Of a DNA stretch of 64,000 bases, positions 1 to 63,727 are shown one piece after another. Both the position numbers and the translations under genes were made by a program. Source of the DNA: Euzebyella marina (GTDB taxonomy: Bacteria > Bacteroidota > Bacteroidia > Flavobacteriales > Flavobacteriaceae); contig NZ_JACYFK010000005.1 in the NCBI RefSeq assembly GCF_014855515.1, positions 124,001 to 188,000 of the forward strand, written 5' to 3'. The notes under the pieces are model-generated. The model was not told the DNA's origin. It made no database searches and saw only the letters and a list, made by a program, of their open reading frames with translations. How positions within the stretch are numbered: position 1 is the first letter of the stretch; each line of letters opens with the position of its first letter.

Positions 1-921
1 TAGTTCTGAAAAACAAAAAAGTACGATTGAGCCTAAACCAATAGCAATTAAAGACAATCTTAGAAGCTGGGTTATTTTTAAAGAAAATTTCTCATCGTTC
101 TTAGAAACTGCACTTCGAGCAAAAACTATTGTACTAAGCAGCATTGGAATTTGCCAAAGATATTGGGTTATTGCTGAGCCCTTAGAATAAATACCTGTCT
201 CAAAAGCGTTACTTAGCGAATCCAATAAAATTATATCTACTTTATAGTTCAAATTTATTATTAGAAGAGAGAAAGCATAAATTAATCCTAAACCAAGCAT
301 TTGCTTGATGACCGACCATTCAAATCTTGAAGAAAATGATTTCAAAAAATCATTTTTAAACAGTAAAAACAAAGAAATAAATAAAGGGCCACCAATCATT
401 GCAATCAAATAACCGGCTATTCCCAATTCTAAAAATATAACTAGTAGAGTTGTAAGCAGTAGCAAAATTAAGGTAGGTACCCAGTTAATTTTGTTGAAAG
501 TTCCTATCTCATTCTTTCCCAGAAAAATACCGCTATTGTAAGTTGCGAATAAAGAAAAAGGAACAGGTATTAAGGCAAGTAAAATAAGAAATAAATTATC
601 CCCTGCTTTACTTAAATACCTTATTAAAATAAAACAAATTAAAACACTTAAAATTGAAGTAAAAAACCATATTTGCGTTATGGCAGTCTTAATCCTCTCC
701 TCCTCGAATAATTTCTTACCCAAAAAGTATGCTGTTGATTGTCTTATACCTAAAGATCCTATACTCATGAATAAAGATGGGTAGACCATGAGCGTCGCTA
801 TCACTCCGTTATTTTCCGGTCCTAAAAATCGAGCTGTAATAATTGAGGTCGCTAAACCGAACAATATCATCAAAACCTTCGAAATTCCTACTCGAATTAA
901 ATCAGATATGAATGATCTCAT
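1..921 (-). CDS. Oligosaccharide flippase (Wzx-like), partial
   Basis: The frame stays open from an ATG at 921 to the window edge, so about 307 N-terminal residues are visible and the C-terminus is missing. The protein is very hydrophobic, with repeated transmembrane segments (roughly eight in the visible part), and starts MRSFISDLIRVGISKVLMIL, followed by a TARFLGPENNGV stretch typical of polysaccharide flippases of the MATE/MVF superfamily. Such proteins flip undecaprenyl-linked repeat units across the inner membrane for Wzy polymerisation. Its ATG overlaps the TGA of the upstream acetyltransferase gene in an ATGA arrangement, which suggests translational coupling. The family is clear; the glycan it carries cannot be read from sequence. 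Confidence 0.85.
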   Translation of the reverse strand, partial: MRSFISDLIRVGISKVLMILFGLATSIITARFLGPENNGVIATLMVYPSLFMSIGSLGIRQSTAYFLGKKLFEEERIKTAITQIWFFTSILSVLICFILIRYLSKAGDNLFLILLALIPVPFSLFATYNSGIFLGKNEIGTFNKINWVPTLILLLLTTLLVIFLELGIAGYLIAMIGGPLFISLFLLFKNDFLKSFSSRFEWSVIKQMLGLGLIYAFSLLIINLNYKVDIILLDSLSNAFETGIYSKGSAITQYLWQIPMLLSTIVFARSAVSKNDEKFSLKITQLLRLSLIAIGLGSIVLFCFSEL

Positions 922-1457
922 TTATTTTTTTCTATTATCCTACATGGAATACCGACAGCGACACTATTGGGGGGAACGTCAATATTTACTACAGAATTAG
1001 CTCCTATAACGGCATTTTCTCCGATGGTTATCCCACCGATAATTTTTGCCCCGCTGTAAATTCGTGCGCCTTTTCTTATAACAGGATAAGAATTCTGTAA
1101 TTTTTGTTTACCATGACTCCCAAAAGTAACTTGTTGAAATATAGAAACATGATCCTCTACAATTACTCCATCACCAATAACAATACCTATTGGATGTGGC
1201 ATAGCAACTTTCTTGCCTATTACTGCGTTATATGAAATATCACAACCCCTTTTTACAATTAGCCGCCTCTTGTAATAAGCAGCTAAATGATTCGAAAAAA
1301 GAATATTGCTTTGAGAGAAGAACTTACCTATCCTATGGTTCAGTAAAACCCTAAATCTTGGACTATAAAAATAATTTAAAATGAATACTTTAAAGCTGAT
1401 GTTTTCTTCCCTGAAATCATTTTTAATTTTCGAAACCGTATCCCTTAACAGACTCAT
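918..1457 (-). CDS. Serine-acetyltransferase-like hexapeptide O-acetyltransferase
   Basis: This 179-residue protein has a helical N-terminal part followed by left-handed beta-helix hexapeptide repeats. The segment MPHPIGIVIGDGVIVEDHV, the FGSHGK loop and the late run GARIYSGAKIIGGITIGENA resemble the CysE/WcaB group of acetyl-CoA-dependent acetyltransferases. It lacks the long N-terminal domain of housekeeping CysE and sits inside a polysaccharide cluster, so I infer O- or N-acetylation of a sugar in the repeat unit rather than cysteine synthesis. It follows the MurA-like gene after 7 bases and overlaps the flippase by 4 bases, so the three are very likely one transcript. Acceptor sugar unknown. 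Confidence 0.82.
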   Translation of the reverse strand: MSLLRDTVSKIKNDFREENISFKVFILNYFYSPRFRVLLNHRIGKFFSQSNILFSNHLAAYYKRRLIVKRGCDISYNAVIGKKVAMPHPIGIVIGDGVIVEDHVSIFQQVTFGSHGKQKLQNSYPVIRKGARIYSGAKIIGGITIGENAVIGANSVVNIDVPPNSVAVGIPCRIIEKNK

Positions 1458-1464
1458 TTTATAT

Positions 1465-2709
1465 TTAAATTATCACGCCAAGCCCCTTAAGCTTTCCTGC
1501 CAAATTTTCGTAGCCACGACCTATTTGCCATGCGTTTTGAATAATGGTCTCCCCATCTGCTGTTAATCCTGCCAACAATAAAGATATTCCAGCACGTAAG
1601 TCTAGAGCAGTGACCTTCGCACCACTTAATGGGATTCCTCCTTTGATTTTTAAAAGGTCACCTATAACCTCAAATTGCATTCCCATTTTTGATAATTCTT
1701 CTGCGTAACCATATCTTCCGGGAAAACGTAAATCCACAATTTTTGAGATTCCGTTAGACATTGCTCCATAAACAGCAAAAAGAGGCTGCATGTCAGAATT
1801 TATACCTGGATATGGTCCGGTGCTTATTTCAATAGGAAATGCTTCTCCTCCTTTGACTATTAAACTTGATTCTCCTCTAAAAAACTTCATACCACTTTCT
1901 CTTAAATAAATAAGAGGAACTTCTAAATGTTCAAAAGGAAAATTCCTTATTTCAACCTCACCTTTGGTTATTACCGCCCCAATTGCCCAAGTCAATGCCT
2001 CTATATTATCCGGAACCACATTATGTCTTACACCACTCAACATATCGACTCCATCAACAACAATACATTTCTGTCCAAAAACCGTAATTTTAGCCCCCAT
2101 TTTATTGAGCATATCAATTAGATCCATAATTTCTGGTCTTATATGAGGATTCCAAATTGTTGTTACACCTTTAGCCAAAGTTGAGCAAAGTATTGCATTT
2201 TCTGTGGCTCCCGTAGACCTAATAGGCAAATGTATATCCGCTGCTTTCAGACCCTCTTTGGCCTCCGCGCATAAATAATCACCTTCTTCCCAAACTTTAG
2301 CACCTAATTTCTCTAATAGCATAACGTGCAAGTCATACTTTCTTTCTCCCAGTTTACAACCTCCGGGTAAAGGTACTTTACCTTCGCCATATCTTGCTGT
2401 CAAAGACCCCAAAATCAGCAGAGTATTTCGAATAGATCGTCCTTCCCAATCTAAAACAGTACTATTATTTCCATTTTCACTTATATGTATAGTATCATGG
2501 TGAGTATTACAAACTTTACCAAGAACTTTAAGCATTTCAACATGCACCTCTATATCAAGTAAACCATTAGGAAAATTACCTAAGAGAACAGGTTCTGATG
2601 TCAATAATGAAGCGGCTAACAACCTTAAAGAGCTGTTTTTAGCTCCGCTCACCTCTACAATTCCCTCTAATTTTCCTTTTGTGATGACTAGATTTTTGTC
2701 ATTATCCAT
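1465..2709 (-). CDS. MurA-like enolpyruvyl transferase in the polysaccharide cluster
   Basis: The 414-residue product belongs to the EPSP synthase/MurA fold and resembles UDP-GlcNAc 1-carboxyvinyltransferase. Residues that are essential in E. coli MurA all have counterparts: Lys-Asn in SGAKNSS (residues 24-25), Arg94, the catalytic Cys118 in LPGGCKLGERKYDLH, Arg123, Asp306 in SDMQPLF and Arg372 in DLRAG. It is therefore expected to be active and to move enolpyruvate from PEP to a sugar nucleotide. It is somewhat short and diverged for a bacteroidetal housekeeping MurA and is enclosed by a glycosyltransferase and an acetyltransferase, so I infer a dedicated paralog making an enolpyruvyl or, after reduction, lactyl-ether sugar for the surface glycan. 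No MurB-like reductase is in the window. A displaced essential murA is the alternative. Confidence 0.83.
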   Translation of the reverse strand: MDNDKNLVITKGKLEGIVEVSGAKNSSLRLLAASLLTSEPVLLGNFPNGLLDIEVHVEMLKVLGKVCNTHHDTIHISENGNNSTVLDWEGRSIRNTLLILGSLTARYGEGKVPLPGGCKLGERKYDLHVMLLEKLGAKVWEEGDYLCAEAKEGLKAADIHLPIRSTGATENAILCSTLAKGVTTIWNPHIRPEIMDLIDMLNKMGAKITVFGQKCIVVDGVDMLSGVRHNVVPDNIEALTWAIGAVITKGEVEIRNFPFEHLEVPLIYLRESGMKFFRGESSLIVKGGEAFPIEISTGPYPGINSDMQPLFAVYGAMSNGISKIVDLRFPGRYGYAEELSKMGMQFEVIGDLLKIKGGIPLSGAKVTALDLRAGISLLLAGLTADGETIIQNAWQIGRGYENLAGKLKGLGVII

Positions 2710-2814: not shown

Positions 2815-3927
2815 TTAAACAGAGTATACCAACTCTGTCTTTCTACCTATATTAGACCAGTCATAGTATTTGAACAACCTTGTCCAAACAGACTCATCTG
2901 GATAATTGTCCTTCTCGTCTATAGCCCTTAGAATTGCTCTGCCTAAACTGTCAGAGTTAACCTTGTCTAAAACATAACCTATTTCTCCAATCTCGAAGGG
3001 CTCGGTCAAACCTCCTACATTAGACACAATCACCCTCTTTTTTTCTCCGATTGCGGTTAACAAAATACCACTTTGAGATATCTTTGTATAAGGCATTAAA
3101 ATAAAATCTGACATCCTTACGCAAGCTAGAAATTCGTGAGATGATAAAAATCTGTTAATTACAATTGCGTTGTTTACTCCTTTTAATTCTAGTAGTTTTT
3201 CATTTTTACCGCTACCAGCTATCAATAAGACAACGTCATCTCTATTGATTAATTCTTTCTTTTTCCAAGTATTTATAATTATATCTATTCCTTTATAACT
3301 GCTGATACTACCTAAACTAGAAAAAACAGTCTTATTATTCAGTCCATATAAATCGTTGAACATCTTTGCTGACTCTAATACCCTGTTATTCTCAGTTTGG
3401 TCAAGCACATCAAGTATACCATGCGGTACAACATGAATTTTGTTAGTAGGAACTTCAAAAAGGTCAACTAAATCATTTTTAGTCTCATTAGTATGAACTA
3501 TTAACCTATCGACTTTATGATAGATTTTTTTATAAATACTCCTGTATTTGTTACCCGAACCATGAGGTAATATATTATGAGCGGTTAAAATTATTTCACT
3601 TTTCTTTGAAATCATCTTCAACAAGAGAAAATCTAGATGTGGGATTTTAAGCCATTGAAAGTGAATTGCCCTAATTTTATCTTGATTTAATTTAATTTTT
3701 CTATATAAAAGAAATTGAGATTTCAGATAACTCAAAATTTTTAAAATTCCTTTTTTGCTTGAATAATGGTATATTTTATTTGTGTTAAGGTTTTTTTCTT
3801 CGTAATCATATTTCGAGCTACAAAAGTATTCAACTTGATAATTTTTTATATTTGAAATCAAAGAGTAATCATAAACTGAAAGGTTATTATAACTCATAGG
3901 ATTTACATAATAAATATAATTCTTCAT
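2815..3927 (-). CDS. Glycosyltransferase, GT4 family
   Basis: This 370-residue protein has the two-domain GT-B layout. The N-terminal half contains RAIHFQWLKIPHLDFLLL and TAHNILPHGSG, and the C-terminal half contains FSSLGSISSYKGIDIIINTW and the acceptor/donor region SGILLTAIGEKKRVIVSNVG with a following TEPFE loop, as in GT4 enzymes. It probably adds one sugar from a nucleotide donor to the lipid-linked repeat unit on the cytoplasmic face of the inner membrane. It lies between two other cluster genes on the same strand, 41 bases after the upstream glycosyltransferase and 105 bases before the MurA-like gene. Donor and linkage cannot be predicted. The stretch is strikingly AT-rich, as is the rest of the leftward arm. 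Confidence 0.85.
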   Translation of the reverse strand: MKNYIYYVNPMSYNNLSVYDYSLISNIKNYQVEYFCSSKYDYEEKNLNTNKIYHYSSKKGILKILSYLKSQFLLYRKIKLNQDKIRAIHFQWLKIPHLDFLLLKMISKKSEIILTAHNILPHGSGNKYRSIYKKIYHKVDRLIVHTNETKNDLVDLFEVPTNKIHVVPHGILDVLDQTENNRVLESAKMFNDLYGLNNKTVFSSLGSISSYKGIDIIINTWKKKELINRDDVVLLIAGSGKNEKLLELKGVNNAIVINRFLSSHEFLACVRMSDFILMPYTKISQSGILLTAIGEKKRVIVSNVGGLTEPFEIGEIGYVLDKVNSDSLGRAILRAIDEKDNYPDESVWTRLFKYYDWSNIGRKTELVYSV

Positions 3928-3968: not shown

Positions 3969-5099
3969 TTAAAGAATATTATCAGATATATAAGCCATGA
4001 TTTTTCTTGCCCGTGTGGTAATATCAAATTTTCTGGAATATTCATAAGCCTCTGAACCCATATCAGTCAACTTTCTGTTATCACTTATTAAACTTTTTAT
4101 AGCTTTATTTATTTCCTGAACATTCATGGGGTCTACTAATATTGAAGACTTATGGTCACACTGAAATTTAATCTCAGGAATGTCAGAAGAGATAATTGGT
4201 AAACCACAGGCCATAGCTTCAACTATGGCATTGCAAGAACCCTCATGTAGAGTGGGTAGAACAAAAATATCGGATGCAGATAAAAATTCATGAACGTCGT
4301 CTGTAGGAACTCTATTCTTGAAGAGGATTTTCTTATCATTCAATACTTGTGCTCCACTACCAATAAAAATGACTCGAACATCTGGCAAATCATTTAAGGC
4401 CTCTAAAACCCGTAAGGGTCCTTTGTCATGAACAAATCTTCCGACAAAAATGATAATTTTCTTATTTAAAGGAAAGCCCAACTTTTTCCTCATTTCAATT
4501 TTGTCTTTTCTAGCAAATTGATCAAAGTTCACAGCATTTGGACTCACCATGATTTTTGATTCATCAACTCCCACTTCAATTAAGTTTTGTTCAATTTGAG
4601 GCGATACTGCTATAAATCCATTAATTTTTGATATTAGCTCTTGATATTCTTTATCTGAATAATACTTCTTTCTTTTATTAATATTTTTAAGTTCTCCTTC
4701 TGCCACAACGATTGGCTTACCCATCTTTTTCAAAGCTTTAACAGCGATAATACCATTAACGAGAAAATGAGCATAAACTACATCGAATTGTATATTTTCT
4801 TCACGCACAACCTTTCTAACCGCCCTAACCATGAAAATCTCACCAATCAAGTGCGTGTTGAAATTCAGTATTTGCTTGTTGGAAGCTGATATTACATATG
4901 GCCTATAGACCGTTGCTAATTCGTCACCATAATCAACATTATTCTTTGTGTATTTAGATTTTTTCCAAATTGTTCGCGGGGCAATTACCGTGACCTCATG
5001 CCCAATTTTTACAAATTGCTGTATTAAATTATATACAAAAATTCCGTAAGTGGGGCTTTCAGTAGAAGGATAATTATTAGATACAACTAATACTTTCAT
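3969..5099 (-). CDS. Glycosyltransferase, GT4 family
   Basis: This 376-residue GT-B glycosyltransferase starts MKVLVVSNNYPSTESPTYGIFVYNL, the usual N-terminus of GT4 enzymes of capsule and O-antigen clusters. The C-terminal donor domain shows IIFVGRFVHDKGPLRVLEAL, FLSASDIFVLPTLHEGSCNA and IVEAMACGLPIISSDIPE, which carries the E-x7-E type catalytic/donor motif. It probably adds one sugar to the repeat unit from the cytoplasmic side. It sits 104 bases after the polymerase gene and 41 bases before the next glycosyltransferase on the same strand. The closest general type is an N-terminal GT4 (glycosyl transferase 4-like) plus Glycos_transf_1 pair. Specificity is unknown. Confidence 0.88.
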   Translation of the reverse strand: MKVLVVSNNYPSTESPTYGIFVYNLIQQFVKIGHEVTVIAPRTIWKKSKYTKNNVDYGDELATVYRPYVISASNKQILNFNTHLIGEIFMVRAVRKVVREENIQFDVVYAHFLVNGIIAVKALKKMGKPIVVAEGELKNINKRKKYYSDKEYQELISKINGFIAVSPQIEQNLIEVGVDESKIMVSPNAVNFDQFARKDKIEMRKKLGFPLNKKIIIFVGRFVHDKGPLRVLEALNDLPDVRVIFIGSGAQVLNDKKILFKNRVPTDDVHEFLSASDIFVLPTLHEGSCNAIVEAMACGLPIISSDIPEIKFQCDHKSSILVDPMNVQEINKAIKSLISDNRKLTDMGSEAYEYSRKFDITTRARKIMAYISDNIL

Positions 5100-5203: not shown

Positions 5204-6385
5204 TCAAGTCGTATCACTGTGCCTAGACCCTAAATTTTTAAATGTCGACCCAATCAAAACTGCAAAGAAAAACCAAAAAAAGATTTTACTTATTGCACCA
5301 CCAGTCTTACCCATATTAAATACTACTACTGCCAACATGACCATATAAACAACTTCTCCATTCTGCCTAAATTTCTGATACAAATTTTTACTAAGTCGCA
5401 AAATAAAAATCAAATAAAACAACAGCCCAAAAACGCCTGTAGTCATTAGAACATATAAAAAAACATTATGTGGGTCGATCAACCTTCCTGTATAACGAAG
5501 CATTTCGGGCAAAGCTCCTGCCAAGCCTACACCGAAAAATAAGTTATCCTCAATTATTAAGAGAGATGACTGCCATAAATCACTTCTTCCTGTATCCCCA
5601 GATTCAATTGTTCTTAAAATTCTTTCTTTAAAAACCGGATTAGATTTCATTATCATAGTCATAAATAGAACTGAAAAACTAATTCCTATTAGAAAGAAGA
5701 TCATTTTCTTAAGAATATTGATCCTCATGAACAAAACAAGTAAAGCTAAACTTATAAAAACAGAAACAAGTGCCCCTCTCGAGCCACTCAATATTATAAG
5801 GTTAAGACAAGAAATGATTGCAACAGAATAGAGCAATAATTTTTTCCAATCGAATTTTTCAGTTATAAGACGCGAAACACAAATTAAAAAGGCAATTACA
5901 ACTTTTACACCAATTGAATTTGGATTTTCACCAAATAATAGAAGACGCCCACCTTTGAAATCACTTCCTATTCCAATTAGAAAAAGAAAATATAGGAGGG
6001 AAATACTAACAACATAAGCATTCAGAGCTTTATCCACAAGTGTGCTATCTTCATAAAAATGACTAACCATCAAAGTCATCAATATAATTAACGTAATAAC
6101 TCGCTCATTATAAGCCCCTTCAATTGACTCAGCATAGGAGCTGTTCAAAGCTGTTGAAATAACACCAATAATTGTAAACAGTATTAAAGGAATTAAATAC
6201 TGTCTTACAGATATAATACGAAAACTCTTTTTCAATCTCGGCAGCCATGAAATAATATAAATAACGCTAGCCATATAAGTCACTGATATCGATCCACCTA
6301 GTTGAAATGGGTCCCAATTCTCAAAAGTAACAGAGAAAACTAGAATAAAAAGGCAGTAATTATTTAACTTTTCAAAAATACTCAC
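5204..6385 (-). CDS. O-antigen polymerase/ligase family membrane protein (Wzy-like)
   Basis: The 393-residue product is an integral membrane protein with about ten to eleven hydrophobic segments. It shows the features of the Wzy_C/O-antigen ligase family: LSGSRGALVSVF in a central membrane segment, a periplasmic loop with GRSDLWQSSL, and RLIDPHNVFLYVLMTTGVFG, which matches the PHN-x-x-L signature seen in WaaL and Wzy enzymes. It probably joins lipid-linked repeat units at the periplasmic face. It is the first gene of the leftward arm, next to the divergent intergenic gap. Polymerase is more likely than ligase because of its place in a Wzx/Wzy-type cluster, but the two cannot be told apart by sequence alone. 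Confidence 0.8.
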   Translation of the reverse strand: MSIFEKLNNYCLFILVFSVTFENWDPFQLGGSISVTYMASVIYIISWLPRLKKSFRIISVRQYLIPLILFTIIGVISTALNSSYAESIEGAYNERVITLIILMTLMVSHFYEDSTLVDKALNAYVVSISLLYFLFLIGIGSDFKGGRLLLFGENPNSIGVKVVIAFLICVSRLITEKFDWKKLLLYSVAIISCLNLIILSGSRGALVSVFISLALLVLFMRINILKKMIFFLIGISFSVLFMTMIMKSNPVFKERILRTIESGDTGRSDLWQSSLLIIEDNLFFGVGLAGALPEMLRYTGRLIDPHNVFLYVLMTTGVFGLLFYLIFILRLSKNLYQKFRQNGEVVYMVMLAVVVFNMGKTGGAISKIFFWFFFAVLIGSTFKNLGSRHSDTT

Positions 6386-6720: not shown

Positions 6721-7923
6721 ATGAAAATTCTATACCTACATCAATATTTTCACACGCCTTATCAACCAGGAAGTACGAGATCATATTGGATTGCTCAAGA
6801 ACTGATTAAGCACGGTCATTCAGTTACTATGCTTACTATGAACAAAAAAATCGACTCTAAAGTAGAAAGAGTTGAAATTGATGGTATTGACGTAATATAT
6901 CTTAATATCCAATATGATAGCGGTACAATGAATATAACGCAAAGGTTAAAAGCTTTTTTAAGTTTTGTTTTTAAATCAATACCAGTTGCCGCCCGAGAAA
7001 AGGATGTCGACCTTGTCATAGCGACTTCAACACCCCTAACTATTGGTATACCCGCTCTTTTTCTAAATTGGTTTAAGAGAAAACCTTTCCTTTTTGAAGT
7101 TAGAGACCTTTGGCCAGAAGTTCCAATACAAATGGGAGGATTAAAGAATAAATTTTTGATTCAGATGGCTCTTTTTTTAGAAAAGACCATCTATAAAAAT
7201 GCTAAACATATTGTTGCACTATCTCCGGGAATGTATGATGGGGTGATTAAGAGAAGTATTTCACCCAAAAAGGTCACAATGATTCCGAACATGTCCAAAA
7301 TATCTGAATTTTGGTCAAGAGAAAAAGACACAAAATTATTTAAGAGATTAGGTTTAAGACCTGATAGTTTCAAAGTGATATATTTTGGAGCCATGAATAT
7401 CGCTAATGGAATGCATTATATCATTGATGGAATAGAATCACTTAAAAACAATGATGAATTTGAATTCATCTTCTTGGGTAATGGTGCAACAAAATCCGAG
7501 ATTGAAGAAAGGTGTAGAAAAAGCGGAATTAATAACGCAAAATTTCTGGGGAGTTTTCCAATGGAAGAGCTATCTGAAATTGTAAATCTCTGCGATGTAT
7601 CCTTAATAACCTTCCAAAACCTACCCATATTGGCAACTAATTCTCCAAACAAATTATTTGATTCTTTATCAGCTGGAAAAACAATTATAGTAAACTCTGC
7701 AGGGTGGACCAAAACTCTGGTTGAAGAACATAATTGCGGTTTTTACGTATCGCCAGAGCATCCGGAAGAATTGGCTGAACAACTATTATTCTTAAAGAAC
7801 AACCCTATAATTCTAGAGCAGATGGGAAAAAATTCAAGAACCCTTGCTGAAACAGTTTACGATAAAAGTATACTCTGTGATAAATTCGCAAATTTAGTCG
7901 ATAAATTGTTGAAAGAAGCATAA
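6721..7923 (+). CDS. WbuB-like glycosyltransferase, GT4 family
   Basis: The 400-residue protein begins MKILYLHQYFHTPYQPGSTR and contains PFLFEVRDLWPEVPIQMGG, both characteristic of the WbuB/WcaI group of GT4 enzymes, several of which transfer a FucNAc- or GlcNAc-type sugar as an early step of O-antigen assembly. The C-terminal half carries the donor-binding Rossmann domain, with NSPNKLFDSLSAGKTIIVNS and CGFYVSPEHPEELAE. It is the first gene of the rightward arm, 172 bases upstream of the initiating phosphoglycosyl transferase, so it may act on the first lipid-linked sugar. Substrates are inferred from group resemblance only. Confidence 0.87.
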   Translation: MKILYLHQYFHTPYQPGSTRSYWIAQELIKHGHSVTMLTMNKKIDSKVERVEIDGIDVIYLNIQYDSGTMNITQRLKAFLSFVFKSIPVAAREKDVDLVIATSTPLTIGIPALFLNWFKRKPFLFEVRDLWPEVPIQMGGLKNKFLIQMALFLEKTIYKNAKHIVALSPGMYDGVIKRSISPKKVTMIPNMSKISEFWSREKDTKLFKRLGLRPDSFKVIYFGAMNIANGMHYIIDGIESLKNNDEFEFIFLGNGATKSEIEERCRKSGINNAKFLGSFPMEELSEIVNLCDVSLITFQNLPILATNSPNKLFDSLSAGKTIIVNSAGWTKTLVEEHNCGFYVSPEHPEELAEQLLFLKNNPIILEQMGKNSRTLAETVYDKSILCDKFANLVDKLLKEA

Positions 7924-8095: not shown

Positions 8096-8701
8096 ATGTA
8101 CCGACACTTTCTTAAGAGAGTTTTCGATTTTCTAATAGCTTTTTTTGCTTTGCTAATTGCTTCTCCAATTCTCGTCTTAGTAACACTTTTATTAAGTATT
8201 GCCAACAAGGGCAAGGTGTTTTTTATTCAGGAAAGACCCGGAAAAGATGAGCGTATTTTCAAGATTTGGAAATTTAAGACTATGAATGATAATCGGGATT
8301 CCGACGGAAATTTATTGTCTGACAAAGAACGTTTGACCAATGTGGGTAAATTTGTAAGAAAGACATCATTAGATGAGCTTCCCCAACTCTTCAATGTATT
8401 GAAAGGAGACATGAGCCTAATAGGCCCCCGACCACTTCTTGTCTCATATTTGCCCTTGTACAACGAAACCCAGAGAAGAAGACACGAAGTTAGACCCGGA
8501 ATTACCGGATGGGCCCAGGTAAATGGAAGAAATGCTATTGCTTGGGAAAAAAAATTTGAATATGACGTATACTACGTTAATAATTACTCCTTTTTATTTG
8601 ATTTGAGAATAATTCTTTTGACTATCCAGAAGGTTCTAAAAAGTGATGGTATTAATTCGACCACTAGCGCAACCATGGAGGTTTTCACTGGAACCAAATA
8701 A
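8096..8701 (+). CDS. Initiating phosphoglycosyl transferase (PglC/WcaJ-type sugar transferase)
   Basis: This 201-residue protein is a monotopic phosphoglycosyl transferase of the short, PglC-like kind. It has one N-terminal hydrophobic re-entrant segment (about residues 10-36), then [20 protein letters not shown], the catalytic Asp-Glu pair in [19 protein letters not shown] (Asp93-Glu94, the same numbers as in Campylobacter PglC), LIGPRPLL and [14 protein letters not shown]. It moves a sugar 1-phosphate from a UDP-sugar to undecaprenyl phosphate at the inner membrane and so starts repeat-unit synthesis. The long N-terminal membrane domain of WcaJ/WbaP is absent, which is normal for this class. 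It is followed after 5 bases by a GT2 gene. The sugar is probably an N-acetylated hexosamine, but this is inference. Confidence 0.92.
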
Positions 8702-8706
8702 CTATT

Positions 8707-9729
8707 ATGAAATTAAGCATCATAATTCCGTGTTACAATATGGAGCTCTATCTACCGGAATGTGTAGATAGCTTGTTGGCACAAAATCTCGATTCGTCAC
8801 AATACGAAGTTATTATCGTTAATGATGAATCTAAGGATAGAACCCTAGAAATAGCGAGGAAATATGAAAGCAACTATTCGAATGTAAAAGTTATTGACAA
8901 GAAGAATGCAGGGGTCGGTGCAGCTCGAAATTCAGGCTATGATCTGGCCCAAGGAGAATATATATACTTTCTAGACCCAGATGACTATCTGGCTCAAGAC
9001 ACCTTACCCGTTTTGCTTTCGAAAATGGATCAGCTCCAACTCGATATCTTAAGTTTTCGTACCAAATCGGTTTATGAAAAAAAATATCCTGTTTCCGAAA
9101 ACCCTATAGACAATAATCACGTACAAATAAAGGTTACCGACGGTATTACATATATTGCCAACAAAAAATATCAAAATGAGATTTGGTGGTATCTGATAAG
9201 AAGAGATTTTATTAAATCGACCGGAATTAGATTCATAGAAGGAAAATGGATGGAAGATGCCATTTTAACCGCAGAACTTTTTTGCGAAGCGAAAAGAATG
9301 GCTCACATCGATTTAGATGTACACAGATATCGAATTTTGCCGACGTCGGCAATGCGAAATAAAAGTAGAGAGCATTATAATAAAGTAATATATGATAATG
9401 CTAATGCGGCTCACGTCTATCATTCGCTAATGGAGCGTTTGCCTAAAGACCATGAGTATGCTGACCTTTGTTTAAAGAGACTTAAAACCAGACAACAATC
9501 ATTTGTTTTCTTTCTTTTGGTAAGATTAATGAAATCGGATATATCGGTGGCTGAAATACCCAAAATGCTTGACGGCTTTGAAAAAATAGATGCCTACCCC
9601 TTGAAAAGGTTTCTTGGTGAAGACTATCATGGTTTTAGTTATTCGTTTTTGGTTTTTATCTTTAACCGCAAGGCATTGATCAATCCATTTATAAAGATAT
9701 TTAGGTCATTATATAACCTGAAAAAATGA
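8707..9729 (+). CDS. Glycosyltransferase, GT2 family
   Basis: The 340-residue product has an N-terminal GT-A domain (about residues 1-220). Visible motifs are LSIIIPCYNMELYLPECVDS, VNDESKDRTLEIA, KKNAGVGAARNSGYDLAQGE and the metal-binding YFLDPDDYL. The C-terminal 110 residues are helical without membrane segments. It probably adds a sugar to the lipid-linked intermediate in the cytoplasm. It starts 5 bases after the phosphoglycosyl transferase gene and its last four bases overlap the start of the ATP-grasp gene, so the three form one tight translational unit. Confidence 0.9.
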   Translation: MKLSIIIPCYNMELYLPECVDSLLAQNLDSSQYEVIIVNDESKDRTLEIARKYESNYSNVKVIDKKNAGVGAARNSGYDLAQGEYIYFLDPDDYLAQDTLPVLLSKMDQLQLDILSFRTKSVYEKKYPVSENPIDNNHVQIKVTDGITYIANKKYQNEIWWYLIRRDFIKSTGIRFIEGKWMEDAILTAELFCEAKRMAHIDLDVHRYRILPTSAMRNKSREHYNKVIYDNANAAHVYHSLMERLPKDHEYADLCLKRLKTRQQSFVFFLLVRLMKSDISVAEIPKMLDGFEKIDAYPLKRFLGEDYHGFSYSFLVFIFNRKALINPFIKIFRSLYNLKK

Positions 9730-16748: not shown

Positions 16749-19661
16749 CTACTGTACCATAGCATCATAAATAGCTTGCTGTATACGCGTACGAAGACCT
16801 GATTTTACTAATAGGGTATTAGATGCCGTAGGATAGGTTCGGTTTGAAAGAAAGACGTACACAAGCTCTTCGTCAGGGTCTGCCCATGTATACGTTCCTG
16901 TAAACCCACTATGACCAAAACTTTTTCTGGAAACACAGCCACAGGTAGGTCCCTTTTCTTCTAGTTGGGGCTTATCGAACCCTACCCCTCTTCTGACATT
17001 GTTATCACAGAAATAACAGGTATTGAACTTTTTTACCGTTCGGTTGTCTAAAAATCTAGTGCCGCCATAATAGCCACCCTGTAGGTACATTTGCATTATT
17101 TTGGCCACATCTTCAGCATTGCTAAAAAGGCCGGCATGACCTCCTACCCCACCTTGCATAGCTGCTCCCATATCGTGCACATAGCCCTGAACGGTTTCAT
17201 AACGATAATATTTATCTTCTTCACTGGGTACAATACGCTCTTTAGAAAATTTTTCAAGGGGATTATAGCTGGTATTGAAGGCTCCTATCGGGGCATATAG
17301 AAAATCATTAACCAGCTTATCAAGTGGCTTACCTTTCTTATCCTCGATGTATTTTTTCATTACGTAATAAGCCACATCACTATAGCGGTACCGGTTAGAT
17401 TTTAATTCTTGCCTGCCTATTCTATTATAAATAGAGTCTCGGTAGGCATCGGTCAAGTATAAATGGTCTGTCACTTTTATAGAATAGCCATCTACAGGGG
17501 CGGTTCGATAAAATTCATCGGATGGTTTCCTGTTCTTATCCAACGTGTCTACATAAAAAGCAATCCATGCAGGTAGTCTCCCGTAGTGCGAAAGCGCTTT
17601 TAGAACGGTAACATTTTTAAGTTCTGAATGAGCATATTCAGGTATCAGGTCTTGAAAAGTATCGTTTAGGGCAATATCACCGTCTTCCTCCATCTTCATA
17701 ATCATTGGTAATGTTCCCAATATTTTGGTAATGGAAGCTAAATCATAAATATTATTCGATTTAATACTGTCCTTTGAATTATATGTAGGCTTGCCAAAGC
17801 CCTTGTTATATACAACTTTTCCTTTTCGGGCCACCAATACCTGCGCTCCTGGAAACATCAAAGAATCAAGTCCATCCTGTACCAAGTGGTCGATTTCCGC
17901 TAATTTATTCGGGTCGAAACCCACCCTTTCAGGAAAACTATACCCCAATCTTGATAGTGATTTTAGTTCTATCTTCGTGTTTACGGGAAATTCTTTATGA
18001 GCGCTTACTGGTAATTTTCCATTGGCCGAAATAGCACCGAAAATTACTTCGGCCGTTTTCTCTTGCGCCAGCGGGCTATTTTGGTAAGAAACAACTACAC
18101 CATCTATATTATCAAAAGACGGGACATCTAATAAAGCATAAGGCTTTGCAAAAACGGATAAAATAAGGTTTGAACTTCGCATTGCGGCAATTTCCTTCAA
18201 CCAGTTCAATTCTTTTTCGCTGAACTTATATGCTTTCCAAGGGCTTTCATTGCTTTTATGATGGCCCACGATTACCAAATTAAAATCTTCTAACTTCTTT
18301 TTTAAAGTATTGATATCGCCAGCATTGACTTGGGTTACGGTCGTGTATTTATTTAAGCTTTCAACGAACACATCGCTGTCGGAATCACCAAATTTAACAT
18401 ATGCTATTTTTTTGTTCTCCAATCTCTTGATTCCCATCAAAAAGAAATCGTTCTTGACCACCGTAATCGCATTCTCTATTGCCTCTTCGTATAATAAGTC
18501 ATCTTCCCGCGAATTCAAATCATTATATAGGTTCTCAACCTGAACAGGTTGATATCGATTCAAACCCACTTTGTATTTGGCCATCAGAATCTTCTTGACC
18601 GAATATGCCAACCTTTCTTCTGAGATTCTTCCTTTTTTATAGGCTTTGGTCAACTTTTCTTTTGCCTTTTCAATTTCCGTAGGCATGAGTAAGATATCGT
18701 TACCGGCCATAAAAGCGGCCAGTTCGGCCTCTCCATCTTTTCTTGATTCAGTGACTCCTTTCATGTTGAGGGCATCGGTAAAAACCAACCCTTCAAAACA
18801 CATTTCTTCCTTAAGAATTCCGGTAATCACCTGCTCCGAAAGTGATGAGGGCAACCCTTCTTGTAGTTCAAATGCAGGTACTTCTAAATGGGCCACCATT
18901 ACACTACTAAGCCCCTCATCAATCAATCTTTGAAAAGGATAAAGTTCAAGACTATCTAAACGATTACGGCTAAAATTGATCAAAGGTAATGCGTGATGCG
19001 AATCAGTAGCTGTATCACCATGGCCAGGAAAATGTTTTCCACTTGAAAGAACTCCGGCACTCTCCATGCCTTTCATAAACGCAATTCCTTTCTCCGCGAC
19101 GTTCTCTCTATCTTCACCGAACGATCGGTTACCTATGATGGGGTTTTTAGGATTGGTGTTAATATCTAAATCAGGCGCAAAATTGATGTGCACACCCAAT
19201 CTTTTTGCATGCTCACCAATTCTTCGCCCGACATCGGCCACAATAGTATTGTCTTCTATAGCGCCCAATGTCATATTCCAAGGGAAAGCATACGTAGAAT
19301 CCAAACGCATAGAAAGTCCCCATTCGGCATCCATGCCAATAAGCAAGGGCAATTTTGAGGCTTGTTGATATTCATTGGTCAGTCTGGCCTGTCTAACCGG
19401 TCCTCCGGTCGAAAAAATGACACCACCTATACCCTCTTCCTCAATCAACTTTTTAATTTGATCCGTACTCGACTTACCTTGATCAGAAGCGACCATCACC
19501 ATAAACAACTGCCCCAACTTCTCATCTAAAGTCAAGGAATTATATTTGGCATCTACCCAATTCTTTTGGTCGAGGCTATCAGAAGTAACCAAGGGATTTT
19601 TCTGTGCAAACGCACCGTTCAAAACAAATAAAAGTATGGGGAAAAGTATGAAAAAACGCAT
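16749..19661 (-). CDS. GH3 beta-N-acetylhexosaminidase (NagZ-type) fused to a beta-lactamase-fold hydrolase
   Basis: I take the ATG at 19661; the longest frame begins at a TTG three codons earlier. A signal peptide (MRFFILFPILLFVLNGAFA) exports it. Residues about 30-380 form a GH3 domain with the NagZ signature KHFPGHGDTATDSHHALP (near 210), which holds the catalytic Asp-His dyad, and a GH3 C-terminal-like part follows to about 570. Residues about 590-965 form a serine beta-lactamase/penicillin-binding-like domain with LASITK (Ser-x-x-Lys near 642), the Tyr motif in RYSDVAYYV and GGHAGLFSNAEDVAK. NagZ enzymes release GlcNAc from muropeptides; the fused hydrolase may act on the peptide or an ester. 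I infer a periplasmic or surface peptidoglycan-recycling enzyme. At 970 residues it is normal for the bacteroidetal fusion. Confidence 0.9.
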   Translation of the reverse strand: MRFFILFPILLFVLNGAFAQKNPLVTSDSLDQKNWVDAKYNSLTLDEKLGQLFMVMVASDQGKSSTDQIKKLIEEEGIGGVIFSTGGPVRQARLTNEYQQASKLPLLIGMDAEWGLSMRLDSTYAFPWNMTLGAIEDNTIVADVGRRIGEHAKRLGVHINFAPDLDINTNPKNPIIGNRSFGEDRENVAEKGIAFMKGMESAGVLSSGKHFPGHGDTATDSHHALPLINFSRNRLDSLELYPFQRLIDEGLSSVMVAHLEVPAFELQEGLPSSLSEQVITGILKEEMCFEGLVFTDALNMKGVTESRKDGEAELAAFMAGNDILLMPTEIEKAKEKLTKAYKKGRISEERLAYSVKKILMAKYKVGLNRYQPVQVENLYNDLNSREDDLLYEEAIENAITVVKNDFFLMGIKRLENKKIAYVKFGDSDSDVFVESLNKYTTVTQVNAGDINTLKKKLEDFNLVIVGHHKSNESPWKAYKFSEKELNWLKEIAAMRSSNLILSVFAKPYALLDVPSFDNIDGVVVSYQNSPLAQEKTAEVIFGAISANGKLPVSAHKEFPVNTKIELKSLSRLGYSFPERVGFDPNKLAEIDHLVQDGLDSLMFPGAQVLVARKGKVVYNKGFGKPTYNSKDSIKSNNIYDLASITKILGTLPMIMKMEEDGDIALNDTFQDLIPEYAHSELKNVTVLKALSHYGRLPAWIAFYVDTLDKNRKPSDEFYRTAPVDGYSIKVTDHLYLTDAYRDSIYNRIGRQELKSNRYRYSDVAYYVMKKYIEDKKGKPLDKLVNDFLYAPIGAFNTSYNPLEKFSKERIVPSEEDKYYRYETVQGYVHDMGAAMQGGVGGHAGLFSNAEDVAKIMQMYLQGGYYGGTRFLDNRTVKKFNTCYFCDNNVRRGVGFDKPQLEEKGPTCGCVSRKSFGHSGFTGTYTWADPDEELVYVFLSNRTYPTASNTLLVKSGLRTRIQQAIYDAMVQ

Positions 19662-19763
19662 AGTGAACAACTGGTCTATGGCAATAACTGAAAACTAAAA
19701 AAAATATTGCATTTCATCGAACAGATATAATGAAATCAATACTTAACAAATGGGAATTAAAAT

Positions 19764-23515: not shown

Positions 23516-24877
23516 CTATTTCAAACTTTCTTTAAACGGTATACGCTCTCCATTCCGGTAAGCCACTATATACGAAGTTTTATACCCTTTTAAATCTGCA
23601 TTTGATTTCAACATTTTTGCCTCGCGTAACGACCTGGTGCTACCATACACATATCTATACAAGTTTTTGTAAGGTTCTTTGGCTACTAAATTAAGGCCGT
23701 TAAAGGATTCTGGTCTTAATGGAAGGTCTTTGGCACTAGCCATGATTTGAACCTTATATATTATCAAGTCTTCACTGGACTCGGCCGATGGATTATTGTT
23801 CGATGAAGCCTTTTCAGCTTTAGCGCTACCAGTATTTTGCTTATTGGTGTCAGATTCAGAACTTTTCTGGGCCTCTTCAATTATCTCTGCAGCACCCTTA
23901 CCCGCATTATCTTCCGGTTTCGTGACAGAGCTGTTTATGGTCGGTGATTCTTGCTGAGCCACTTCTTTGTTTTCCTTCGCGGTTTCAACTACCTGTTTTT
24001 CATCTGGTTTCTTATCTTCAACAGGTAACTCTTTTTTGGTCTCAACAACTGGATCAAAGTCGGCGATATTACCCATTGCATTGTTTCTGTAAGCAACAAT
24101 AGCATCGGCGATGGCCGTACCCATTTCAGATTGGCCTTTTTTAGAATTCAAGTAAGCGCCTTCTTGTTTGTTTGTCAAAAAGCCAGTTTCGACCAAGACA
24201 CTGGGCATAAAAGTTTGATGCAATACGATAAAACCAGCTTGCTTCACTTTCCTATCGTTTCTTTTCAACTTACCAGAAAAATTATCCTGAATTGTCTTGG
24301 CGAGGGCTATACTATTATCTAAAAACTCCTCTTGCATAATGGTCAACCCAATTATAGACTCCGGCGAGTTAATATCATAATCGGCATATCTATTTTGGTA
24401 ATTATCCTCCAAATAAATAACCGAGTTCTCTTTCTTGGCGACCTCAAAATTCTGTTTGTTGGCATGAAGACCTAAAACGAAGGTACCGGCACCATACGCA
24501 TTAGAGGTATGCGAATCACAATGAACCGAAACAAAAACATCTGCATTCGCCTTATTGGCTATTTGCCCTCGAACATAAAGATCAACAAAAGTATCGTCTT
24601 TACGGGTGTACACCACTTTGATATTCGGATTCTTCTCTAAAATAGAACCCACCTTCAATACAATATTGAGGGCAATGTTCTTTTCTAAATAACCGTTACC
24701 TAAATTACCAGGATCATGGCCACCATGGCCCGCATCCAAAACAACGGTAAATTTATCGTCATTTTGAAATGTAGCCTTATTTTTGCCAAAAATATAAATT
24801 GGTAGTGCCAATGCGATAAATAGAAGTAATCTTAACTTCGACAAACACATAATTACACTGTATTTCGATGCATTCAT
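23516..24877 (-). CDS. N-acetylmuramoyl-L-alanine amidase (Amidase_3) with SPOR-like C-terminus
   Basis: The 453-residue protein is exported by an N-terminal signal (a second start at 24850, MCLSKLRLLLFIALALPIYI, would also serve). Residues about 43-268 form an Amidase_3 zinc hydrolase with its metal and catalytic residues visible: VVLDAGHGGHDPG (His), YLEKNIALN (Glu), SVHCDSH (His) and VLVETGFLTN (catalytic Glu). A low-complexity linker rich in Glu, Lys, Asn and Ser follows, then a C-terminal domain of about 80 residues (IIYKVQIMASAKDLP onwards) that resembles a SPOR peptidoglycan-binding domain. It cuts the amide between MurNAc and L-Ala of the stem peptide in the periplasm, probably in cell division or turnover. 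Confidence 0.9.
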   Translation of the reverse strand: MNASKYSVIMCLSKLRLLLFIALALPIYIFGKNKATFQNDDKFTVVLDAGHGGHDPGNLGNGYLEKNIALNIVLKVGSILEKNPNIKVVYTRKDDTFVDLYVRGQIANKANADVFVSVHCDSHTSNAYGAGTFVLGLHANKQNFEVAKKENSVIYLEDNYQNRYADYDINSPESIIGLTIMQEEFLDNSIALAKTIQDNFSGKLKRNDRKVKQAGFIVLHQTFMPSVLVETGFLTNKQEGAYLNSKKGQSEMGTAIADAIVAYRNNAMGNIADFDPVVETKKELPVEDKKPDEKQVVETAKENKEVAQQESPTINSSVTKPEDNAGKGAAEIIEEAQKSSESDTNKQNTGSAKAEKASSNNNPSAESSEDLIIYKVQIMASAKDLPLRPESFNGLNLVAKEPYKNLYRYVYGSTRSLREAKMLKSNADLKGYKTSYIVAYRNGERIPFKESLK

Positions 24878-62917: not shown

Positions 62918-63727
62918 TTAAGAACCCGCTTCTATAGCTGCTTTGACCGAGCCATGCTTCTTTAAAAGAGATTCAGCTTTCTCATAAGGTATTCCCAACC
63001 CTTCTGCGACATAGCGTGCGCCACGATCAACAAGTTTGTTATTACTTAGTTGCATGTTGACCATCTTGTTCCCTTTTACCCTTCCAATCTTAATCATCAG
63101 GGCAGTAGAAATCATATTTAGGGCTAGTTTTTGAGATGTTCCGCTCTTCATACGCGTGCTGCCCGTAACAAATTCAGGTCCAACGTTCATCTCGATAGGT
63201 ATATCGGAATTTTTCGCCAACGGCGAACCTGGGTTGTTGGTTATTCCTGCGGTTAAAAGTCCGTTCTTTTTAGCCTGTTCAATGCCTCCTAACACATAGG
63301 GCGTTGTACCGGAAGCGGCAATACCGACTACCGTATCAAGTTCGGTCATCTCATACGCCATCATATCTTTCCACGCCTGTTCAGTGTCATCCTCTGCGTG
63401 TTCGACCGATTTTCTAATGGCAATATCGCCTCCAGCTATAAGACCGATTACCCTTGTATGTGGCATACCGTACGTAGGTGGTATTTCAGAAGCATCGAGT
63501 ACACCTAAACGGCCGCTTGTACCCGCCCCTATATAAAAAAGACGCCCTCCTTTTTCAAATCGTTCGGCCAGCGCATCGACCAATTTCGTGATTTGAGGAA
63601 TAGCCTCTGAAACGGCAACGGCCACTTTTTGGTCTTCCTCGTTCATTTTCTTTAAAATAGAGTTGGTTTCTAACAACTCTAAATCGTCATGGTTCGATGG
63701 GGTTTCGGTAATCTTGGTATAGTCCAT
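62918..63727 (-). CDS. murQ: N-acetylmuramic acid 6-phosphate etherase MurQ
   Basis: The 269-residue SIS-domain protein contains GGRLFYIGAGTSGRLGVLDA followed by SEIPPTYG with the first catalytic Glu, RKSVEHAEDD with the second, VGIAASGTTPYVLGGIEQAK and GPEFVTGSTRMKSGTSQKL. It removes the lactyl ether from MurNAc 6-phosphate to give GlcNAc 6-phosphate and D-lactate, in peptidoglycan recycling. It is slightly shorter than the E. coli enzyme, as in many Bacteroidetes. It begins 5 bases after the end of a DeoR-type regulator gene on the same strand, which probably controls it. It converges with the cytochrome c gene with one base between stops. Confidence 0.95.
   Translation of the reverse strand: MDYTKITETPSNHDDLELLETNSILKKMNEEDQKVAVAVSEAIPQITKLVDALAERFEKGGRLFYIGAGTSGRLGVLDASEIPPTYGMPHTRVIGLIAGGDIAIRKSVEHAEDDTEQAWKDMMAYEMTELDTVVGIAASGTTPYVLGGIEQAKKNGLLTAGITNNPGSPLAKNSDIPIEMNVGPEFVTGSTRMKSGTSQKLALNMISTALMIKIGRVKGNKMVNMQLSNNKLVDRGARYVAEGLGIPYEKAESLLKKHGSVKAAIEAGS

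Follow-up and report, generated by a model that had tools for sequence, protein, structure and literature searches.

Peptidoglycan precursor synthesis begins with MurA and MurB, the first two enzymes on the way to UDP-MurNAc, and a MurA-like enzyme has also been recruited outside the cell wall, namely NikO (PDB 4fqd), which transfers enolpyruvate to UMP in the biosynthesis of nikkomycin (PMC6801904). Enolpyruvyl transfer is listed for MurA and NikO alone in a review of the field (PMC6801904). Surface glycans can also receive a PEP-derived three-carbon acid from ketal pyruvyltransferases of the PF04230 type, and these enzymes form cyclic pyruvate ketals and are unrelated to the protein described below (PMC6801904).

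Here we describe a MurA-type enolpyruvyl transferase, designated MurA*, that is encoded in the window (the whole stretch of 64,000 nucleotides of Euzebyella marina DNA that was analysed; Table 1). MurA* has in common with MurA the fold, the PEP-binding and catalytic residues including the cysteine of the C115 loop, and approximately 34-39% identity to solved MurA structures. There are also clear differences from MurA, as MurA* forms a separate clade, lies in a glycan-cluster context, has V161, V163, A186, E188, R232 and I327 (E. coli numbering) replaced, and occurs as a second copy beside a canonical MurA. As in the pathway to UDP-MurNAc, its relatives pair MurA* with a MurB-type reductase (MurB*), but here the two are co-encoded in polysaccharide operons and the window lineage lacks the reductase. 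NikO, at 25% identity, differs from MurA* in serving an antibiotic pathway and in using a nucleotide acceptor. With the PF04230-type enzymes MurA* would share the delivery of a PEP-derived three-carbon acid to surface glycans, and no such ketal pyruvyltransferase was identified in the examined part of the window cluster.

Table 1. Features of the glycan cluster and other genes of the window (window positions).
Feature	Position	Strand	Remarks
Wzx-type flippase, 427 aa	1..921	-	Extends past the left end of the window, complete in locus L004; 4-bp overlap with the acetyltransferase gene
Left-handed beta-helix (hexapeptide) acetyltransferase	918..1457	-	Closest NCBIfam profile is EpsC serine O-acetyltransferase, with a score under the cut-off
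MurA*, MurA-type enolpyruvyl transferase, probably dedicated to the glycan cluster	1465..2709	-	414 aa; K24, N25, R94, C118, R123, D306, R332, D370, R372, R398 present
GT4-type glycosyltransferase	2815..3927	-	Directly upstream of MurA*, 105-bp gap
GT4-type glycosyltransferase	3969..5099	-	
Wzy-type polymerase	5204..6385	-	PF04932
Glycosyltransferase-like protein	6721..7923	+	Opposite-strand flank of the same cluster
Priming sugar-phosphate transferase	8096..8701	+	PF02397
GT2-like glycosyltransferase	8707..9729	+	Right half of the cluster; named from sequence alone
GH3/beta-lactamase fusion	16749..19670	-	Likely cell-wall remodelling or recycling
Amidase_3 protein	23516..24877	-	Likely cell-wall remodelling or recycling
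MurQ, N-acetylmuramic acid 6-phosphate etherase	62918..63727	-	TIGR00274 above cut-off

A preliminary description of this DNA had proposed that the gene encodes a complete MurA-like enolpyruvyl transferase, and this is borne out by an intact open reading frame, profile searches, matches in the PDB and a structural model. In a Pfam profile search of the genome, MurA* matched PF00275 (EPSP_synthase) with an E value of 3.8e-71 and 240 bits against a gathering cut-off of 22.8; this score, together with the two-domain enolpyruvyl transferase fold, places it within the superfamily. It also scores 394 bits against the MurA subfamily profile PRK09369 of NCBIfam (cut-off 297). In the PDB, MurA structures match best (E 6e-80) and NikO matches distantly, and the AlphaFold2 model (mean pLDDT 92) superimposes on MurA structures over its full length with TM scores of 0.87-0.94. 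The six catalytic residues for which counterparts had been claimed, Lys24, Arg94, Cys118, Arg123, Asp306 and Arg372, are all present and do not vary across the 22 family members that were aligned; R332, D370 and R398 are found as well. In contrast to these matches, the score of 380.1 bits against TIGR01072 (murA) is slightly below the equivalog cut-off of 392.7, and other MurA* proteins range from 311 to 404 bits, some of them barely above the cut-off. The window MurA* probably resembles MurA in function, yet is not the cell-wall MurA, as it misses the equivalog cut-off and falls outside the canonical clade. Wherever at least 28 of 29 relatives share a residue, the window protein has it too, and on this ground we rejected the idea of a decaying duplicate. 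Comparison with the MurA* of Pseudozobellia gives a dN of 0.18, with dS saturated and hence no dN/dS ratio. As part of the explanation preferred below, we consider it likely that MurA* is a working MurA-type enzyme.

The genome (4.67 Mb, 99.97% complete) contains three PF00275 genes, which encode MurA*, AroA and a canonical MurA. This last, a second murA of the 435-residue type for which a search had been suggested, encodes 435 aa and lies on contig C2 (L006 4157-5464). A comparison set of 29 other MurA* loci was assembled from named genomes, giving 30 MurA* proteins with that of the window, at 60-78% identity; each of the 29 other host genomes likewise carries one canonical MurA. In a maximum-likelihood tree, 35 canonical MurAs are split from the 30 MurA* proteins with branch support of 100/100, so that the paralog stands in a separate subfamily, apart from the essential MurA of close relatives. 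The edge of the MurA* clade itself is weaker (60/95), with a very divergent protein, L111, near it. The hosts, mostly Bacteroidota in this sample, also include Pseudomonadota, Desulfobacterota, Verrucomicrobiota and Cyanobacteriota, and phyla are mixed inside the clade, with Desulforapulum, Aliidiomarina and Psychrobacter among Bacteroidota, on which ground the gene appears to have moved between phyla. Members from Rhizobium, Qingshengfaniella and Agrobacterium are plasmid-borne; phage records gave only matches below 60% identity, the best at approximately 38%. A search for an E. coli O-antigen relative with the DNA of the Psychrobacter gene gave no match, and such a nucleotide search would miss a distant one. 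MurA* was found in 6 of 399 Flavobacteriaceae genomes, with the divergent type in 2 more, and is absent from the two other genomes of the genus of the window. A separate search of the phylum (L123-L141) returned a MurA match of 36-40% identity and approximately 410-420 aa, unlike the 435-aa type, in 22 of 395 genomes, where it is possibly the canonical MurA.

In the window, the minus-strand genes follow an operon-like order of Wzy, two GT4 enzymes, MurA*, acetyltransferase and Wzx, with a further glycosyltransferase just beyond the window. With Wzy, Wzx, glycosyltransferases and a priming transferase flanking it, the MurA* gene is part of a complete Wzx/Wzy cluster, and a member of the MurA* clade thus shares an operon with Wzx and glycosyltransferases. 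The placement between a glycosyltransferase and an acetyltransferase given in the preliminary description is confirmed, the acetyltransferase gene following only 7 bp after MurA*; hexapeptide-cluster homologues of this acetyltransferase occur in 19 of the 30 loci. A homologue of the glycosyltransferase-like protein on the opposite strand is also kept next to the clusters of Kriegella, Pseudozobellia and Aurantibacter. In line with the preliminary description, no cell-wall gene was seen within about 14 kb of MurA*, and the sequence read extended over 16.8 kb of genome on the left side of this gene. Inside the window, the closest candidate for a role in peptidoglycan recycling is the GH3/beta-lactamase fusion, which lies at 16.7 kb. 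MurQ removes a lactyl ether, but it lies 60 kb from MurA* and probably serves peptidoglycan recycling. To the left of the window there are two lipoprotein-like proteins (L004 8591-10156 and 10449-13646, plus strand; also L152 9-4617) that have in common a C-terminal domain of approximately 350 aa without a Pfam match, one of them with PKD repeats. The pair is also found beside the cluster of the Pseudozobellia genome G638, a cluster that likewise has no MurB gene, and may represent polysaccharide-acting enzymes.

When the surrounding genes of all loci were clustered, the most constant neighbour of MurA* was a gene for a MurB-type reductase. Of the 29 other loci, 25 have this gene beside MurA*, as do three plasmid loci that were checked, at distances of -75 to +2541 bp, and the common order is MurA*, acetyltransferase, Wzx, MurB* and glycosyltransferase. 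The Kriegella and Aurantibacter clusters resemble that of the window, but with MurB* after Wzx. The MurB* proteins retain the MurB core, and one that was tested exceeds the TIGR00179 (murB) cut-off. In an unselected sample of 399 Flavobacteriaceae genomes, MurB* occurs in five, in each of them next to MurA* or the divergent MurA, a co-occurrence with a chance of approximately 7e-10 if relatedness is ignored. By comparison, the canonical murA and murB genes of the MurA* host genomes are separated by no less than about 26 kb or lie on separate contigs. The MurB partners do not form one clade but come from more than one MurB branch, and the divergent MurA L111, 40% identical to MurA*, is also adjoined by a MurB*. 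The pairing therefore appears to be a recurring functional one rather than a strict co-inheritance. This frequency of adjacent MurB genes suggests that the ancestral module consisted of MurA* and MurB, whose expected product is a nucleotide sugar with a lactyl ether, destined for a surface glycan. The 40%-identical protein itself, followed directly by MurB* in a glycan cluster (L111 7809-9955 in genome G111 and L153 in G720), may belong to a sister module acting on a further acceptor. The open-licence literature searched yielded no case of MurA and MurB paired in a surface glycan cluster, and an earlier notice is possible.

The window departs from this pattern. The preliminary description had suggested a search for a murB-like gene to the left of the window; no MurB-type gene was found in the window cluster or in the 16.8 kb to its left, nor was a MurB remnant found in the cluster. 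The sole MurB of the genome is a 340-aa protein of the housekeeping type, encoded on another contig, that groups with canonical MurBs, and a hidden MurB remnant or distant MurB copy was rejected because none was found. The same state is seen in the sister genus, as Pseudozobellia WGM2 and the closed genome G638 each have a MurA* cluster without MurB and one canonical-type MurB, and in G638 the cluster order is the same as in the window. Four of the 29 other loci are without MurB, namely that of Pseudozobellia and L026, L033 and L034, and these last three, being metagenome assemblies or near contig ends, cannot be judged for MurB absence. Because the window and Pseudozobellia MurA* proteins are sisters in the tree (98/89), a single loss of MurB* would be the simplest history for both. 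The most fitting description of the window MurA* is as the opening enzyme of a mobile MurA*-MurB module for surface glycans that here has no second enzyme.

The residues around the active site bear on the acceptor. By E. coli numbering, the PEP-binding and catalytic residues K22, C115, R120, D305, R331, D369, R371 and R397 are all present in the window protein and are invariant across the 30 MurA* proteins, except for R397 in one. Around the sugar-nucleotide site, the same replacements, V161R, V163T, A185P, A186H, E188R, R232N and I327R, occur in all 30, whereas A186, E188 and V163 are invariant or nearly so in the 35 canonical MurAs. At the positions that we take to form the UDP-GlcNAc site (after UniProt P0A749), N23, R91, R120, D123, S162 and D305 are kept, while P121, V122, V161, V163 and I327 are replaced. 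That residues around the sugar-nucleotide site are replaced in every member while the PEP residues are kept suggests a different acceptor, and MurA* is most naturally read as catalysing the MurA reaction on a changed acceptor; the pocket changes could still leave UDP-GlcNAc as the acceptor. The loss of Lys160 was set aside as a sign of altered specificity, as this position also varies among canonical MurAs. Uronic-acid pathway genes are frequent but not constant in MurA* clusters, and no acceptor can be deduced from them. In addition, Cys118 of MurA* (E. coli 115) corresponds to Asp in all 28 Bacteroidota canonical MurAs compared (that of the window genome and 27 others), and the change from Cys to Asp at this position is known elsewhere to confer fosfomycin resistance (PMC6801904). 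Because of this difference from the essential MurAs of Bacteroidota, fosfomycin may serve as a selective probe of MurA*.

Taken together, we consider it likely that MurA*, which has no dedicated reductase beside it in the window lineage, serves a surface glycan. MurA* would transfer enolpyruvate from PEP to a hydroxyl group of a UDP-sugar, and this sugar would enter a Wzx/Wzy surface polysaccharide and not peptidoglycan. In most relatives, a MurB-type flavoenzyme of the same operon would then reduce the enolpyruvyl ether to a lactyl ether, giving an acidic sugar similar to muramic acid, which a glycosyltransferase would add to the repeat unit before Wzx flips the unit. In the window lineage, the dedicated reductase would have been lost or never acquired, with MurA* still under full constraint, and the sugar in the polymer would bear either an enolpyruvyl ether left unreduced or, if the housekeeping MurB takes part, a lactyl group. 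Two quite different readings are very improbable. A back-up peptidoglycan MurA, comparable to the second MurA of Firmicutes and placed in the glycan cluster by chance, would account for the MurA fold and the full catalytic set, but nearly all loci read are glycan clusters in which MurA* has its own MurB and adjoins Wzx and glycosyltransferases, the gene is absent from two congeners and from most of the Flavobacteriaceae, and the window protein is under the murA equivalog cut-off; it was rejected on context, tree and MurB pairing. Enolpyruvylation of a nucleotide or another non-sugar acceptor is no more credible: among characterised MurA-like enzymes, PMC6801904 names NikO alone as having a different acceptor, and NikO is a distant match to MurA*, but the low identity to NikO argues against it, and so do the MurB partner and the setting among Wzx, Wzy and glycosyltransferases of a polysaccharide cluster.

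Within the preferred reading of a glycan-dedicated MurA*, two outcomes have to be weighed. MurA* might make ordinary UDP-GlcNAc-enolpyruvate that the housekeeping MurB reduces, so that the glycan holds N-acetylmuramic acid; this is a real possibility, if short of an even one. Retention of the N23, R91, R120, D123, S162 and D305 equivalents and the canonical MurB of the genome are consistent with it, and on this reading MurB* could be lost without harm, in keeping with the three genomes that have none. However, other lineages retain a dedicated MurB beside MurA*, and the replacement of A186, E188 and V163 by other invariant residues throughout the clade also speaks against it. The enolpyruvyl ether could instead stay unreduced as the final glycan decoration, an outcome that we entertain tentatively in view of the lack of a dedicated reductase in the window cluster or genome, the same state in the closed sister-genus genome and the full conservation of MurA*. 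Against this, the housekeeping MurB could act in trans, or a different reductase may be present elsewhere in the genome. It is a cautious suggestion that some marine Flavobacteriaceae might make a polysaccharide with an unreduced enolpyruvyl ether, through a MurA paralog with a new acceptor in a module that lost its reductase. No description of an enolpyruvyl ether on a polysaccharide, and no biochemistry or glycan chemistry for any MurA* member, was found in the open-licence literature searched. The proposal in the preliminary description, an enolpyruvyl sugar nucleotide used directly or reduced by a MurB-like enzyme, gains support from the MurA-then-MurB route in relatives, and for the window, which lacks the dedicated reductase, either an enolpyruvyl or a lactyl group would fit. 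The two findings that were to refute this proposal, a genome with no other murA and a grouping with the essential MurA of close relatives, were not obtained. Its remark that such decoration would be unusual for a bacteroidetal glycan stands as far as the gene is rare in Flavobacteriaceae, but the module itself is spread over at least five phyla and, in this sample, is found mostly in Bacteroidota.

Since automatic annotation names the MurA* and MurB* genes murA and murB, such names should be read with caution. Fosfomycin might turn off one glycan while leaving the cell wall untouched, given the Cys of MurA* and the Asp of the housekeeping enzyme. The lineages without MurB offer a natural experiment that separates enolpyruvyl from lactyl decoration, and the MurA*-MurB module itself would provide a concrete genetic route to lactyl-ether sugars. 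Overall, the opening two reactions on the way to peptidoglycan precursors seem to have been duplicated, specialised for surface glycans and spread as a module across phyla.
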